In this document: positions 1 through 32,719 of the stretch, piece after piece
Layout: the number at the start of each line of letters is the position of its first letter
Position numbering within the stretch: the first letter of the stretch is position 1
Origin: a virus
Reading direction: 5' to 3' (one strand)
DNA: 32,719 nt
Virus record (IMG/VR): IMGVR_UViG_3300043449_001814
Span: 1-32,719 of that record
Notes under the pieces: model-generated
Databases searched by the model: none
What the model was told of the DNA's origin: nothing
The model's input: only the letters and a program-made list of their open reading frames with translations
Translations under genes and position numbers: made by a program

Positions 1-173
1 AGGAGAGTGACAAATCGCGCACTATAAAAAGTATATCAGATGAATTCGACAGCCTTGCCAGGGATATTGTGGGCAATGAGGGGAAAGGGATATTCTATGC
101 CAAGAACAAGCTCGGCATGCATGACAGGCAGCAGGTTGAAACCAAGAACGTTGAGCGTTTTGATTTCGAATAA
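1..173 (+). CDS. Small terminase subunit, C-terminal part (left-end copy, truncated by window)
   Basis: The first complete codon is at base 3 and the stop TAA is at 171-173. The 56 residues match the C-terminus of the full gene at 31696-32091 exactly, including the segment around GNEGKGIFYAKNKLGMHDRQ. The missing 5' part lies at the other end of the window. The role is that of the full copy: DNA recognition and terminase assembly during packaging. It is not a second gene but the same locus read again through the terminal overlap. Confidence 0.85.
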   Translation, partial: ESDKSRTIKSISDEFDSLARDIVGNEGKGIFYAKNKLGMHDRQQVETKNVERFDFE

Positions 174-186
174 TTTTGTATATTTG
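171..186 (+). promoter_or_regulatory. Candidate -7 boxes upstream of large terminase
   Basis: Two overlapping matches to the Bacteroidota -7 element TAnnTTTG are present: TAATTTTG at 171-178, which includes the terminase small-subunit stop codon, and TATATTTG at 179-186. Neither has a TTG at the 20-base spacing seen at the two stronger promoters; the nearest TTG gives a 16-17 base spacer. This may be a weak promoter for the late tail genes or a chance match in AT-rich spacer. Confidence 0.3.
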
Positions 187-257
187 CCATGGTTGACATA
201 ATAAGATTTCAGTAGTGGTTAGGTATAAGGGTGGCGCAGGCTGCCCTTTGTAATGTT

Positions 258-1460
258 ATGAAGGTGATAAAAGGATATAAGCCCCATGCCAATCAAAGGC
301 TGATACATGATTCCATAAACCATGGACCATACAAGTACTATGTGCTGAACATAGGTAGGCAGTTTGGCAAGACCCTGCTTGGTATCAATCAGATGCTGTG
401 GTGGGCCATCAATGACAAGGGGTGCAACATTGCCTGGGTCACACCTGTATACAAGCAGAGCAAAAAGGTCTTTGATGAGATGGAGCGCGTCACTAGGGCA
501 TCCGGGCTGTTTGAATTCCACAGGTCTGACCTTTGGATTAAGGGATTTGGCAGCACCATCACCTTCTATAGCGGTGAGAAACCGGATAACATCCGCGGTA
601 ACACCTTCGATTACCTAATCATTGATGAGATGGCATTCACCAGGTCAGAGCTATGGGATGAGGTGCTGAGTGCAACTGTGTTGGTGCGTGGCAAAAAGGT
701 CTTGTTCATTTCAACACCTAAGGGCAGGAATCACTTTTACAGGCTAGCCCTTCAGCACAACTATGATGAGAGGTACAAATACTTTCAATTCACCAGCTAT
801 GACAATCCGCTGATTGACAGCCAGGATTTAGAGGAGCGCAAGCGTTCACTGCCTGACCATATCTTTCGGCAGGAGTACATGGCTGAATTCGTGGATAATG
901 CATCCGGGCTATTCCGCAACATATCAGCCTGCATTGGCACAGGGCAGCCAACAGCCAAAATGTATGCCGGGCTGGACATTGGCCGAGCAGATGACTACAC
1001 TGTGCTGTCAATCATCAACAGTGATGGGCACATGGTGGCAGTCTACAGGTGGCGTCACATGGAGTGGAGCCAAATCATTGACCAGGTCACAGCCAAGATT
1101 AAGCAGCACAATGCACTCACACTGGTGGAGGTCAATAACCAGGGTGATGTATTCTATGAGATGCTGGCCAAGTCATGCAGGAATCTAGTGGAGCCATGGG
1201 TGACATCAGCCAAGAGCAAGCCCCAATTGATTGAGGACCTGGCAGTGGCATTCGAGCAAGCAGAGGTAATGGTCCACAATGAGCGCTGGCTGCTTGATGA
1301 ATTGGAGGCATTTACCTATATTTACAATCCAGCAACAAGGCAGGTAAAGTACAGCGCACCTGATGGCTTGCATGATGATGGGGTGATAAGCCTGGCATTG
1401 GCATGGCATTGCAGGAAGACATACAGCAGGAGAGGAGTATACAAAGTGATGAGAGTATGA
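258..1460 (+). CDS. terL: Large terminase subunit (packaging ATPase/nuclease)
   Basis: This motor protein pumps DNA into proheads and cuts the concatemer. With the ATG at 258 it has 400 residues. The N-terminal ATPase shows a Walker A-like GRQFGKTLL (residues 33-41), a Walker B FDYLIIDE ending in D123-E124, and the coupling motif STPKG. The C-terminal RNase H-like nuclease shows D240 in GLDIGRADDYT, E291 in LVEVNNQGD, and the HDDGVISLALA motif near residues 372-382 with the last acidic residues. A GTG at 231 would add nine residues, but it lies in poorly conserved spacer and ATG fits the family start better. It follows the small subunit and its stop overlaps the next gene by ATGA. The fold and role are secure. 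Confidence 0.95.
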   Translation: MKVIKGYKPHANQRLIHDSINHGPYKYYVLNIGRQFGKTLLGINQMLWWAINDKGCNIAWVTPVYKQSKKVFDEMERVTRASGLFEFHRSDLWIKGFGSTITFYSGEKPDNIRGNTFDYLIIDEMAFTRSELWDEVLSATVLVRGKKVLFISTPKGRNHFYRLALQHNYDERYKYFQFTSYDNPLIDSQDLEERKRSLPDHIFRQEYMAEFVDNASGLFRNISACIGTGQPTAKMYAGLDIGRADDYTVLSIINSDGHMVAVYRWRHMEWSQIIDQVTAKIKQHNALTLVEVNNQGDVFYEMLAKSCRNLVEPWVTSAKSKPQLIEDLAVAFEQAEVMVHNERWLLDELEAFTYIYNPATRQVKYSAPDGLHDDGVISLALAWHCRKTYSRRGVYKVMRV

Positions 1461-22320: not shown

Positions 22321-22559
22321 GTCCAAAAGAAAAGGCACAAGAGTTATTTGATAAGTATTATCAGATTTTTGAAGATGATGAAGATGAACATTATATAGGT
22401 ACTTGTAAAAGAATTTCTAAACTAAGCGCATTAATTGCAGTTGATGAGATAATAGAAGCTAATCCTTGTTATGAGTCATCAGATAGAGGTTTAAATTTTA
22501 GTTGGCAAGATAACACATATTACTGGCAACAAGTTAAACAATTTATTGAGGAGATATGA
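22317..22559 (+). CDS. Small acidic phage protein (common Bacteroidota early gene type)
   Basis: The 80 residues include ALIAVDEIIEANPCYESSDR and YYWQQVKQFIEEI, a pattern I associate with small proteins found widely in Bacteroidota phages and with no function I know. Base composition is more AT-rich than in neighbouring genes (TTA, ATA, GAA and AAT codons), hinting at a recently acquired cassette. It is coupled by ATGA to both neighbours. Confidence 0.65.
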   Translation: MSPKEKAQELFDKYYQIFEDDEDEHYIGTCKRISKLSALIAVDEIIEANPCYESSDRGLNFSWQDNTYYWQQVKQFIEEI

Positions 22560-22984
22560 TACACAAAATGAATGAATTAGTTAAGCTAATTGACATGTAT
22601 GGGCTGAAAACATCTAAGCGAAACCGGGAACTAGTATACCAGCGTTTCTACATGTACAAAGAATTACGCAAGTGGTTAACATTGGAGCAGGTTGGTAGGC
22701 TATTTGGCAAGGACCATGCGACAGTAATCTATGGAATCAAGATGGCAAAGATGTTTGAGCACATGAATGATACCATATACTTTGAATACATCAAGCACAT
22801 TCGGGCTGATTACTTGGCCATGCTTGACGGAAAGAGTATGTTTGGATTACGCAAGATTGACTATGTGAATGGCACAGCTATAATGTACGTAAACATCCCA
22901 ATGGAGCGTGATGTATATGACAGCATTGAGGACGTTGATATCTGCCAATTCAAAGAGGTTTTGGAGTGTGTAACGAGTGTGTAA
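22556..22984 (+). CDS. DnaA domain-IV-like replication initiator protein
   Basis: The 142 residues include a helical N-terminus and LTLEQVGRLFGKDHATVIYG (about residues 41-60). This closely follows the DnaA signature helix-turn-helix (I-G-x-x-F-G-x-R-D-H-x-T-V) that reads DnaA boxes, but there is no ATPase domain. The C-terminal ~45 residues are beta-rich and unlike DnaA. The last codons and stop (GAG TGT GTA ACG AGT GTG TAA) are built from two copies of a 9-mer repeated in the next ~180 bases. Its neighbours are that array and then the primase/helicase gene, so it is the likely origin-binding protein, perhaps also a repressor of the downstream promoter. It couples to the previous gene by ATGA. 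Confidence 0.75.
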   Translation: MIHKMNELVKLIDMYGLKTSKRNRELVYQRFYMYKELRKWLTLEQVGRLFGKDHATVIYGIKMAKMFEHMNDTIYFEYIKHIRADYLAMLDGKSMFGLRKIDYVNGTAIMYVNIPMERDVYDSIEDVDICQFKEVLECVTSV

Positions 22985-23166
22985 TTACACACTACACACA
23001 CCTATATGCAGTAAAAAAAAATCAATTCATTTTTGAAAAAACTGTTTTTTGCCGTTACACACTGTGTAATTACACACTTTTGGCTCTTAAGCCCAGCAAA
23101 CACTGATAGTTTGAGTGTGTAAATGAGTGTGTAACGGTGTGTAAAAAGTGTGTAAATTTACACACT
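22965..23166. repeat. Iteron array of AGTGTGTAA/TTACACACT: candidate replication origin
   Basis: Nine exact copies of the 9-mer: forward at 22965, 22976, 23114, 23126 and 23147; inverted at 22985, 23055, 23070 and 23158. Two one-mismatch copies lie at 23061 and 23136. Neighbours are often 10-12 bases apart, one helical turn. Bases 22976-22993 form a perfect 18-bp palindrome and 23147-23166 a perfect 20-bp one. TTACACACT agrees with the DnaA box TTATnCACA at seven of nine positions, counting n as a match. An A/T-rich stretch at 23011-23050, including a short AAAAAA/TTTTTT inverted repeat, could be the unwinding element. The stretch holds no gene beyond 22984. Confidence 0.8.
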
Positions 23167-23169
23167 GAA

Positions 23170-23200
23170 TTGAGGGAAATGTGAATTAATACTAATTTTG
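23170..23200 (+). promoter_or_regulatory. Bacteroidota-type promoter for the primase/helicase gene
   Basis: TTG at 23170-23172, a 20-base spacer and TAATTTTG at 23193-23200 match the host-type -33/-7 promoter. The gene's ATG at 23213 follows 12 bases after the -7 box, leaving a very short leader. The last iteron palindrome (23147-23166) ends four bases before the TTG, so a bound DnaA-like protein could repress or activate here. Confidence 0.8.
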
Positions 23201-23212
23201 TGGATAAAAGCA

Positions 23213-25489
23213 ATGAAAAAAACGTACTTAAGAAAGTTAGCAAGTGAGGGGTATAGCATCATTCCTGTTGAGGAGGATAAGCGGCCCAAAGGTGCCTGGA
23301 AAAAATACCAAAAAGAGCACAGGTCACCGGATGAGGTGGAGGCATTGAATAGCCCATTGTATGGGTTGATATGTGGCTACAATGATGTGGAGTGCATTGA
23401 TGTGGACCTAAAGGTGATTGTGGGATTAAAGGAGCAAAAGGAATGGTGGGCTGAATTCCTGCAATTCTTGGAGGACAATATTGAGGATTTCATGTCAAAG
23501 GTGACCATTGTCAAAACAAAAAACGCTGGATTCCATATCCTGTACAGGTGCTTTGATGTGGCAGGTAATACCAAAATAGCTACATTGAAGGGCCAAAGCG
23601 AGGCAATCATTGAAACCAGAGGCGTTGGTGGCATGGTGGTACTATACGACAATTACCTAAGCAAGCGAAGGTACCATGATATGCAGTACATTACACCTGA
23701 GGAGAGAGAGATAATATGGGAAATAAGCCGAACGTATCACTACACAGGAGATATGCCCACAGAGGAGCCAAAAAGTGGCTCATTTCAAACCGAGGGAATC
23801 AGTCCATGGGCAGATTACAATAGCCAATACTCAGCATTGGATTTGATATCAAGTGATTTTGACATCACAAGGAGGACCAATTCAGCCTATATCATCCGCA
23901 GGCATGGTGCAAAGAGTCCGCATTCCGGATATGTGTACCAGGATAGTGGATGTATGTATCTGTTCAGCACAGGTACCATATATCCAGCGGAGCAATTGCT
24001 ATCCCCATTTGCCATATACGCATACAAATACCACAATGGTGATATGACAGCAGCAGGCAAGGACCTGTATGAGCAAGGTTATGGCTCAAGGGCCATGCCT
24101 AAGGTGGATGTGCCAAAGGTTGTGATGCCTAAGGAGAAGAAAATAACAAGGCAACAATTCCCCATTGAGATATTTCCCGAGAAGGTACAGAGCTACATGC
24201 TGCAATCAGCCAATACATTGGGTCTGTCAATTGACTACATGGGCAGCTCATTCCTGTGGGTGCTGTCGGTTATCATAGGCAATAGCTTGAGAATGCAGGT
24301 CAAGCAGGGATGGTATGAGGTGGCATCCCTGTGGATTGCAGTGGTGGGTAAGCCAGGGATTGGGAAAACACCATCCATAAATCAGATAATTTTTCCGTTG
24401 AGGGAAATGAATATCAGAGAGCAAAAGGAATATGCCCGAAAATATGCCAAGTACAAAGAGTATGAGGCCATGGATAAAAAGCAAAAGGAGTATGCGGAGT
24501 ATGTGGAGAAACCTGTGAGTAAGCAATTCCTGGTAGGTGACATTACGCTGGAGGCATTGATTGACCTACATGAGCAGAATCCAAATAGTGTAGGGGTGTT
24601 TAAGGATGAGCTCGCAGGGTGGTTCAAGGATATGAACAAGTACAGGCAAGGAAGTGACCTGGAGTTTTGGCTCTCATCTTGGTCTGGCACCAGCATATCA
24701 TTGAATAGGAAAACATCAAAGAGTGCATTCGTGGATAAGCCAATGATACCTGTATTGGGTGGTATACAGCCATCTGTATTTGATGAATTCACCACAGGTG
24801 AGAACAAGGAGAATGGTTTTGTGGATAGGATACTGATTAGCTATCCTGAGCTTAGGGTCAATCACTACAATGCCAACAGCATGGATAAGGTAATGAGTGA
24901 GATGTGGATTGGAATACTGCATCAAATCAAATACAGAATTGATTCAGCCTATTTTAAGATGACTGAAAAGGGTGATATTATTACTATGGATGTAACATTC
25001 AGTGATGATGCCAACAAAGAATGGATACGGATACATGATAAGCTCACAGATATTCAGAATTCAGATGATGAAAATGAGTACATGAAAAGCATGCTGCCCA
25101 AACAAAAGAGCTATATTCCTAGGTTTGCGCTATTGCTGAACACGTTATGGTCCATATTGGAGAAAGGATCTCAGATTGAGCATGTGAGCAAAGAGAATAT
25201 TCTGAGAGCTGAGCTGCTGAGTGAGTATTTTATCAACATGAGCAAGCTCGTAAAGCAGGATGTAAAGGAGAAAAATGAGCTGATGCAGGCAGGCAAGACA
25301 GCAGGTAGTGATAAATATGCCATGCTTAAGGCAATGTTCAAAGCCAATCCTGAGCTGAACAAGACTACAGCCAGCGAGGTGTTAGGTGTATCACGGAAAA
25401 CGGTGTATAACATGTTAAAACAAATAGAAAATGAACAAGCAAACAAGAGAAAGGCTCAAGCAGCTGGAGCTGCAGGAGCTGCAAACTAA
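23213..25489 (+). CDS. Primase-polymerase / DUF3987-type helicase fusion
   Basis: The 758 residues start at ATG 23213, not the upstream TTG at 23198 that lies in the -7 box. The N-terminal ~180 residues look like the PrimPol (AEP) domain: ECIDVDLK with D63 and D65, NAGFHILY with H108, and an ETRGVGGMVV strand near 134-143. After a linker, residues about 320-650 are a DUF3987-like P-loop module with Walker A VVGKPGIGKTPS (about 378-387), a probable Walker B in GVFKDELAGW, and ILISYPE later. The C-terminus has a helix-turn-helix (KTTASEVLGVSRKTVYNMLK) and an Ala/Gly-rich tail. It would prime and unwind DNA at the adjacent iteron region. Its end overlaps the nuclease gene by 59 bases. Confidence 0.85.
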   Translation: MKKTYLRKLASEGYSIIPVEEDKRPKGAWKKYQKEHRSPDEVEALNSPLYGLICGYNDVECIDVDLKVIVGLKEQKEWWAEFLQFLEDNIEDFMSKVTIVKTKNAGFHILYRCFDVAGNTKIATLKGQSEAIIETRGVGGMVVLYDNYLSKRRYHDMQYITPEEREIIWEISRTYHYTGDMPTEEPKSGSFQTEGISPWADYNSQYSALDLISSDFDITRRTNSAYIIRRHGAKSPHSGYVYQDSGCMYLFSTGTIYPAEQLLSPFAIYAYKYHNGDMTAAGKDLYEQGYGSRAMPKVDVPKVVMPKEKKITRQQFPIEIFPEKVQSYMLQSANTLGLSIDYMGSSFLWVLSVIIGNSLRMQVKQGWYEVASLWIAVVGKPGIGKTPSINQIIFPLREMNIREQKEYARKYAKYKEYEAMDKKQKEYAEYVEKPVSKQFLVGDITLEALIDLHEQNPNSVGVFKDELAGWFKDMNKYRQGSDLEFWLSSWSGTSISLNRKTSKSAFVDKPMIPVLGGIQPSVFDEFTTGENKENGFVDRILISYPELRVNHYNANSMDKVMSEMWIGILHQIKYRIDSAYFKMTEKGDIITMDVTFSDDANKEWIRIHDKLTDIQNSDDENEYMKSMLPKQKSYIPRFALLLNTLWSILEKGSQIEHVSKENILRAELLSEYFINMSKLVKQDVKEKNELMQAGKTAGSDKYAMLKAMFKANPELNKTTASEVLGVSRKTVYNMLKQIENEQANKRKAQAAGAAGAAN

Positions 25490-31695: not shown

Positions 31696-32091
31696 ATGGC
31701 AAAATCACAGGAAACCATAGATAAGCTAGAGGCATATGCTTGGCAGTACATTCAGGAGTGTATTAATCATACACGTCCACATGTCGCAGGGAATGGTAAG
31801 GTAATCCAGGTACCTGATAGGCACATACCTACCATTGACTACTTTCTGAGGATATGGATACCAATGCAGGAAGGCATGCAGTTGATTGCAAGGCGCACAT
31901 GGTATGATTGGTTGAGGGAAGAGAGTGACAAATCGCGCACTATAAAAAGTATATCAGATGAATTCGACAGCCTGGCTCGGGATATTGTGGGCAATGAGGG
32001 AAAAGGGATATTCTATGCCAAGAACAAGCTCGGCATGCATGACAGGCAGCAGGTTGAAACCAAGAACGTTGAGCGTTTTGATTTCGAATAA
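31696..32091 (+). CDS. terS: Small terminase subunit
   Basis: The 131 residues start ATG 31696, two bases after the previous stop. It has helix-rich DNA-recognition pattern (IDKLEAYAWQYIQECINHTR), a central IPTIDYFLRIWIPMQEGMQL, the W-Y-D-W-L turn, then a long helix (KSISDEFDSLARDIV) and GNEGKGIFYAKNKLGMHDRQ near the end. Together these resemble small terminase proteins that assemble as a ring, bind the packaging site and recruit the large subunit. It is followed by 84 bases of spacer and the large subunit. The left-end copy (1-173) is the same protein. Confidence 0.82.
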   Translation: MAKSQETIDKLEAYAWQYIQECINHTRPHVAGNGKVIQVPDRHIPTIDYFLRIWIPMQEGMQLIARRTWYDWLREESDKSRTIKSISDEFDSLARDIVGNEGKGIFYAKNKLGMHDRQQVETKNVERFDFE

Positions 32092-32719
32092 TTTTGTATA
32101 TTTGCCATGGTTGACATAATATGATTTCAGTAGTGGTTAGGTACAAGGGTGGCGCAGGCTGCCCTTTGTAATGTTATGAAGGTGATAAAAGGATATAAGC
32201 CCCATGCCAATCAAAGGCTGATACATGATTCCATTAACCATGGACCATACAAGTACTATGTGCTGAACATAGGGAGGCAGTTTGGCAAGACCCTGCTTGG
32301 TATCAATCAAATGCTGTGGTGGGCAATCAATGATAAGGGGTGCAACATTGCTTGGGTCACACCTGTATACAAGCAGAGCAAGAAGGTGTTTGATGAGATG
32401 GAGCGAGTCACCAGGGCATCCGGCCTGTTTGAATTCCACAGGAGTGATTTATGGATTAAGGGATTTGGTAGCACCATCACATTCTACAGCGGTGAGAAAC
32501 CGGATAACATACGTGGTAATACCTTCGATTACCTAATCATTGATGAAATGGCATTCACCAGGTCAGAGCTATGGGATGAAGTGCTGAGTGCTACTGTGTT
32601 GGTGCGTGGCAAAAAGGTCTTGTTCATTTCAACACCTAAGGGCAGGAATCACTTTTACAGGCTAGCCCTTCAGCACAACTATGATGAGAGGTACAAATAC
32701 TTTCAATTCACCAGCTATG
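31919..32719. repeat. Terminal direct repeat, right copy (pairs with 1-801)
   Basis: This copy aligns with 1-801 at an offset of 31918. Differences from the left copy in coding sequence are synonymous only, for example TCT versus AGT for one Ser and CTT versus TTA for one Leu near 32446-32456. Two substitutions lie in the spacer (32122 and 32145). The first turns AAG into ATG at 32121, creating a 16-codon open frame with stop at 32169. Confidence 0.9.
32176..32719 (+). CDS. terL: Large terminase subunit, N-terminal part (right-end copy, truncated by window)
   Basis: This is the same gene as 258-1460 read again at the right end and cut by the window after 181 codons. The protein is identical over that length, including the Walker A-like GRQFGKTLL and FDYLIIDE, despite about 25 silent base changes. 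It should not be counted as a paralogue. Confidence 0.9.
   Translation, partial: MKVIKGYKPHANQRLIHDSINHGPYKYYVLNIGRQFGKTLLGINQMLWWAINDKGCNIAWVTPVYKQSKKVFDEMERVTRASGLFEFHRSDLWIKGFGSTITFYSGEKPDNIRGNTFDYLIIDEMAFTRSELWDEVLSATVLVRGKKVLFISTPKGRNHFYRLALQHNYDERYKYFQFTSY

Follow-up and report, generated by a model that had tools for sequence, protein, structure and literature searches.

We believe that we have found the replication origin of an uncultured phage, together with the protein that reads it. The stretch in question, 32,719 nucleotides of viral DNA (IMG/VR record IMGVR_UViG_3300043449_001814), was analyzed whole; we call it the window (W among our locus labels, where the loci of relatives carry L and a number). 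A cluster of short repeats, or iterons, occupies positions 22965-23166, directly ahead of a gene for a primase-helicase. It is highly likely that this array is a replication origin, its iterons predicted to be bound by the C-terminal helix-turn-helix (HTH) of the primase-helicase encoded just downstream, which would also unwind and prime the DNA. Three findings come directly from computation: that the array exists, that it is linked to the primase-helicase, and that protein residues covary with iteron bases. An earlier note, made by a model from the letters alone, had described the region as a reduced initiator-origin module in which a small DnaA-like protein reads the repeats and recruits the primase-helicase. 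Iterons beside a primase-helicase survive from that picture; the DnaA-like protein as their reader does not.

An iteron array ahead of a primase-helicase gene

Nine exact copies of AGTGTGTAA/TTACACACT lie at 22965, 22976, 22985 (minus strand), 23055 (minus), 23070 (minus), 23114, 23126, 23147 and 23158 (minus), against 0.30 expected; the maximum over 100 shuffles was two, and none reached nine. Two near copies, ACTGTGTAA at 23061 and GGTGTGTAA at 23136, bring the array to the composition that the earlier note had given for it. The close spacing (11-12 bp inside clusters), the two perfect palindromes and the A/T-rich stretch that the note described are likewise all there in the sequence. The features of the array are as follows.

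22965..23166, unstranded: putative replication origin, an array of iterons; the nine exact and two near copies of AGTGTGTAA fall into three clusters (22965-22993, 23055-23078 and 23114-23166)
22976..22993, unstranded: perfect palindrome AGTGTGTAATTACACACT, made of two divergent iterons
23147..23166, unstranded: perfect palindrome AGTGTGTAAATTTACACACT
about 23003..23052, unstranded: A/T-rich stretch between iteron clusters, read from the sequence; candidate unwinding region, where the strands may open
23098..23107, plus strand: AAACACTGAT, a degenerate copy of a conserved non-iteron element with the consensus TATAAACATTGA

The iteron does resemble the DnaA box TTATNCACA, as had been remarked, in that GTG and a 3' TAA are common to both. 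The likeness stops there: two mismatches, at bases 1 and 6 of TGTGNATAA, are fixed, and no consensus box occurs within the array. The sole perfect DnaA box in the window, at 23199-23207, falls outside the array, and its count is compatible with chance. Near relatives (L002, L003, L006 and L007, for example) carry mutations in it, and we therefore dropped it as a conserved site.

The gene downstream of the array, which the earlier note correctly called a PrimPol/helicase, encodes a protein with two Pfam domains, Prim-Pol (PF09250, E 5e-9) and DUF3987 (PF13148, E 1.3e-55).

23213..25489, plus strand: PrimPol-DUF3987 primase-helicase, 758 residues when counted from the ATG at 23213 (alternative start, TTG at 23198); proposed origin-recognizing initiator
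25361..25447, plus strand: C-terminal HTH of the primase-helicase, residues 717-745; a three-helix end with AlphaFold pLDDT of about 77-87 that covaries with the iteron
25391..25426, plus strand: recognition helix SRKTVYNMLKQI, residues 727-738, in which R728 varies in step with iteron base 4, K729 with base 6 and N733 with bases 8-9

Foldseek matched the Prim-Pol fold to 1rni, 3m1m and 6a9w (E 1e-6 to 4e-4), with the prim-pol of pRN1 ORF904 at E 1e-6, and the ATPase part weakly to MCM-type AAA+ proteins; profile matches of the C terminus to HTH domains were also weak. Among named phages and plasmids, the primase-helicase has partial matches only, at about 25-32% identity, so there is no cultured system to lean on. 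Nor did we find an experimentally described mechanism for the DUF3987 helicases of this phage family.

Arrays accompany the primase-helicase across the family

In near relatives, whose DnaA-like proteins are 68-73% identical to that of the window, the iteron positions are kept; at 68-70% identity most iterons hold both place and sequence as the sequence between them drifts. Since the array was conserved among these near relatives, we gathered the wider family through the primase-helicase. Of 132 distinct primase-helicases, 105 have an array beside their gene, 51 of these arrays being upstream and 54 downstream of it, at a calling threshold of 6 (first-order Markov controls gave 2.5-4). The repeat itself varies by lineage and includes ACTGTAAAC, GGTGTGAAA, AGTGGGACA, AGTGTAACA and GGTGTGCAA, among others. 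In L193, 15-bp tandem repeats precede the primase gene by about 0.8-1.3 kb; they fall within coding sequence that specifies a short repeated peptide, and we ruled them out as an origin array.

These positions bear on whether the array might be mainly an operator, at which the primase-helicase or some other protein controls transcription of the replication genes, with the origin elsewhere. Iteron initiators commonly repress their own genes, and in the window, as in other upstream cases, the array fills the gap before the primase gene. In 54 of the 105 relatives, though, it lies downstream and so is not that gene's operator there. The arrays also hold a conserved extra element, TATAAACATTGA, found exactly in 22/105 array regions and with at most one mismatch in 31/105 (shuffled, 1/105; control stretches, 5/101). 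We therefore consider an operator without origin function quite unlikely. The element often sits a few bases ahead of an iteron cluster and is a candidate site for opening or priming; the window has only the degenerate AAACACTGAT.

The DnaA-like neighbor is not the best-supported reader

The array overlaps the 3' end of a gene for a small protein that, as the earlier note proposed, is the DNA-binding domain of DnaA without its ATPase.

22556..22984, plus strand: lone DnaA domain IV protein, 142 residues; an adjoining, apparently optional DNA-binding protein

The search against DnaA domain IV that the note suggested bears this out: Pfam Bac_DnaA_C matches at E 5e-8 (bit score 33.3, cut-off 31.5), with no other Pfam domain, and a profile search of the PDB returned DnaA matches only (E 2e-6 to 1e-3). 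The AlphaFold model has pLDDT 93-98 over residues 11-80, and its top Foldseek matches are the DnaA domain IV structures 3pvp and 1j1v, at weak E-values of 0.03-0.2. The protein thus shares the domain IV fold with DnaA and differs in having no second domain and, with it, no AAA+ ATPase of the kind found in DnaA initiators.

Could this protein bind the iterons as divergent DnaA boxes and recruit the primase-helicase? Its gene adjoins the array and ends inside it, its domain IV fold is genuine, the iterons have bases in common with the DnaA box, and similar genes stand beside upstream arrays in many relatives. Against this, the gene is often missing. It is present within the fetched locus in 42 of the 105 array-bearing relatives, and the more distant ones (47-52% identity) mostly have their array directly downstream of the primase gene and mostly lack the DnaA-like gene. 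A whole-record Pfam search did not find it in 29 of 31 virus records, though many records are fragments and some of the family's DnaA-like proteins fall short of the Pfam cut-off; array-bearing records of 25-64 kb without a Pfam DnaA-like match include L060, L195, L203, L204, L210 and L221. In L201 and L202, array and DnaA-like gene flank the primase gene on opposite sides.

Other comparisons are between loci that have exchanged the gene. In L090 and L092 the primase cores are identical, the DnaA-like proteins agree at only 46% of positions and the repeat is one and the same; it is also unchanged between L047 and L051 (primase core 91%, DnaA-like 36% identical) and between L067 and L072 (85% and 38%). 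The arrays of these pairs can be aligned in spite of the exchange. Were the DnaA-like protein the reader, the repeat would track it, yet it stays constant. A regression of motif distance over loci with both genes agrees: the primase recognition helix contributes (beta 0.315, p 0.0005), and the DnaA recognition helix is not significant beside it (0.069, p 0.20). An early regression over 39 loci had already favored the primase end over the DnaA helix. The earlier note expected the 9-mer to covary with the DnaA recognition helix in related phages; it follows the C-terminal HTH of the primase instead. Gene exchange, gene absence and distance regression together lead us to reject the DnaA-like protein as the main reader, and we regard recruitment of the primase-helicase by it as very improbable. 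Host DnaA is ruled out on different grounds: the DnaA box is conserved, and the repeat differs between lineages.

A compromise is that both proteins bind, the primase-helicase HTH setting the specificity and the DnaA-like protein, where present, acting as co-binder or regulator at the same array. In one half of the family the gene does adjoin the array, which speaks for such joint binding, as does a small residual DnaA-domain term at the loci with both genes (0.10, p 0.10). The frequent exchange of the gene with the iteron unchanged speaks against it, and on balance we think joint binding unlikely. Genes for DnaA domain IV-like proteins, belonging to several unrelated lineages, also recur away from arrays, 1-2.5 kb upstream of the primase gene (L291, L285, L284, L273, L322, L201, L202 and others). 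The DnaA-like protein has no relative that we could find among named phages. It is more likely to be an accessory DNA-binding regulator that works mainly at other sites, its gene apparently an optional and often exchanged neighbor of the primase-helicase.

A collinear code between recognition helix and iteron

The case for the primase-helicase as reader of the array rests on a correspondence between residues and bases. We number the recognition helix S1 R2 K3 T4 V5 Y6 N7 and the iteron A1 G2 T3 G4 T5 G6 T7 A8 A9. Arginine at residue 2 goes with G at base 4 (two-by-two counts 79/0 and 3/27), and L, V or I at that residue pairs with T4. Lysine or arginine at residue 3 goes with G at base 6 (25/13 and 1/70). 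Arginine at residue 7 goes with CA at bases 8-9 (14/2 and 0/93), and K7 with AC. Mutual information, weighted for related sequences, peaks collinearly along helix and repeat: residue 2 with base 4 (z 28), 3 with 6 (8.1), 7 with 8 (7.7) and 7 with 9 (5.8).

On a tree of the primase core, built without the C terminus, changes in motif and helix share branch and direction in 12/12 cases for R2/G4, 9/11 for R7/CA and 10/14 for K,R3/G6, against null means of 0.9, 1.0 and 1.6, respectively, when motif changes are put on branches in proportion to their length. The last of these tests excludes K7 helices from the trait, which we decided after viewing the table. The K7/AC association is weaker, with three co-changes (p 0.007). 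In a regression of distances, the recognition helix carries a coefficient of 0.36 (p 0.001), the core 0.09 and the other HTH helices -0.02 (not significant). Among distant primases, the most similar helix predicts the motif with 1.9 mismatches in 9, the most similar core with 3.0. A small set of nine distinct primases fetched later, partly related to one another, fitted the rules at bases 4 and 6 in 9/9 and at bases 8-9 in 7/9; both misses had C8 as predicted and an ambiguous base 9.

The closest independent match to the window, whose helix SRKTVYN goes with AGTGTGTAA, is the pair L207/L212: the helix is SRKTIFN, the repeat AGTGGGTAA, the array lies downstream and no DnaA-like gene was found. 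One code thus spans upstream and downstream arrays, in W with L207/L212, L054 with L199 and L038 with L221. It is predicted to pair each lineage with a preferred repeat: W with AGTGTGTAA, L084 with ACTGTAAAC, L054 with AGTGTAACA, L062 with GGTGTGAAA and L195 with AGTTTAAAA.

Several observations weigh against an origin read in this way. The code is incomplete, because certain lineages with different helices have one repeat in common; the unlike helices SRTTVNNW and SRQTINKY both stand beside ACTGTAAAC. The motifs were found by our own scripts with semi-automatic framing, in which the helix played no part. A few fully flanked primases (L058, L174, L181 and L243) have no clear array. Cumulative GC skew, which the earlier note offered as a means of locating the origin, is of no help: skew is positive over nearly all of the window, a scan of which gave no turning point at the array, and so skew indicates no origin. 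Finally, the downstream arrays, half of the family, abut the HTH codons, and linkage could inflate the correlation in these cases, an effect that would not reach upstream arrays, which lie 2.2 kb away. Taken to its limit, this would mean that array and HTH merely travel together by recombination, with no functional tie. The same code holds for the distant upstream arrays and across both layouts, and the motif is predicted by the recognition helix and not by the rest of the HTH, and so we judge linkage without function extremely unlikely. A contrast of a different kind appears between L093/L084 and L100/L106, where primase cores are nearly identical, the C-terminal HTHs share about 45% identity and the repeat is unchanged; this is C-terminal recombination.

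A proposed mechanism and its relatives

How might the origin work? The C-terminal HTH of the primase-helicase would bind the iterons, and the protein would gather at the iteron clusters. The AAA+ helicase domain would then open the A/T-rich stretch between clusters, and the PrimPol domain would lay down the first primers, one initiator recognizing, unwinding and priming in the manner of P4 alpha. Base specificity would reside in one helix, residue 2 (R) pairing with base 4 (G), residue 3 (K/R) favoring G6 and residue 7 setting bases 8-9. The DnaA domain IV gene would be dispensable for recognition, opening and priming. From these patterns we infer that the protein physically binds the array, that the array works as an origin, and in which order opening and priming occur; the claims about the reader rest on covariation.

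P4 alpha carries primase, helicase and winged-helix domain in one protein, which binds origin repeats and then unwinds and primes (PMC4234260). We propose the same division of labor within one protein here, built from different parts, with a Prim-Pol as primase and DUF3987 as ATPase. The C-terminal domain of SaPI Rep recognizes short iterons directly downstream of rep (PMC7581432), and half of our primase-helicase family has this layout; we group SCCmec Cch2 with SaPI Rep. SaPI Rep, however, has no fused Prim-Pol, and in the present family a residue-to-base correspondence is visible across lineages. As in the P4 alpha/SaPI Rep type, a C-terminal DNA-binding domain sits on a replicative helicase and the iterons lie beside its own gene; specificity through that domain is indicated by covariation. 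No member of the P4 alpha/SaPI Rep family appeared among the Pfam and PHROGs matches, and the likeness we claim is one of function, not membership. PLE RepA offers a further parallel, its DNA-binding domain covarying with the origin iterons and the two being swapped as one module (PMC8263062); the protein is unrelated, with an N-terminal RepA_N domain and long iterons. Similar in architecture are the PrimQH and PolpTN2-like primases, in which Prim-Pol is fused to ATPases including DUF3987 and a C-terminal winged helix was proposed to recognize the origin (PMC5862659). That was a prediction only, to which iterons and covariation can now be added.

Two further observations concern the phages themselves. 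Window positions 3-801 and 31921-32719 are 96.1% identical over 799 bases; because the two ends of the 32,719-base record match, the phage genome is probably circular or permuted and about 31.9 kb long, with strain variation where the ends overlap. Relatives L222 and L223 come from genome bins of Bacteroidota, one a Psychroflexus bin and the other a Bacteroidetes bin, and have arrays directly upstream of the primase gene, hinting at Bacteroidota as hosts where a host can be guessed.

Possible private origins and what they may mean

Several relatives encode GIY-YIG (T5orf172/MUG113) proteins no more than about 1 kb from the primase gene. These proteins end in a primase-type HTH, and their recognition helix is not the one carried by the resident primase.

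L199: 6480-7076, GIY-YIG gene
L307: 5608-6105, GIY-YIG gene
L206: 3296-3763, GIY-YIG gene
L188: 2380-2961, GIY-YIG gene
L252: 1962-2558, GIY-YIG gene
L059: 3-341, GIY-YIG gene

They resemble ICP1 Odn (PMC8263062). A helix unlike that of the resident primase is what one would expect if these proteins cut the origins of competitors and spare their own. This raises a possibility that we advance tentatively, and think somewhat doubtful, that these phages hold fast-diversifying private origins, each iteron read by one helix through a collinear code, the diversity being driven by rival origin-cutting nucleases.

A widespread, uncultured phage family now has a likely origin and a likely origin-recognition protein. 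An easy misreading is also corrected: a DnaA-like neighbor beside repeats that look like DnaA boxes is not necessarily their reader. About a dozen independent changes stand behind the recognition code, which is open to testing with short peptides and oligonucleotides and could allow cognate origins and nuclease targets to be predicted from protein sequence alone.

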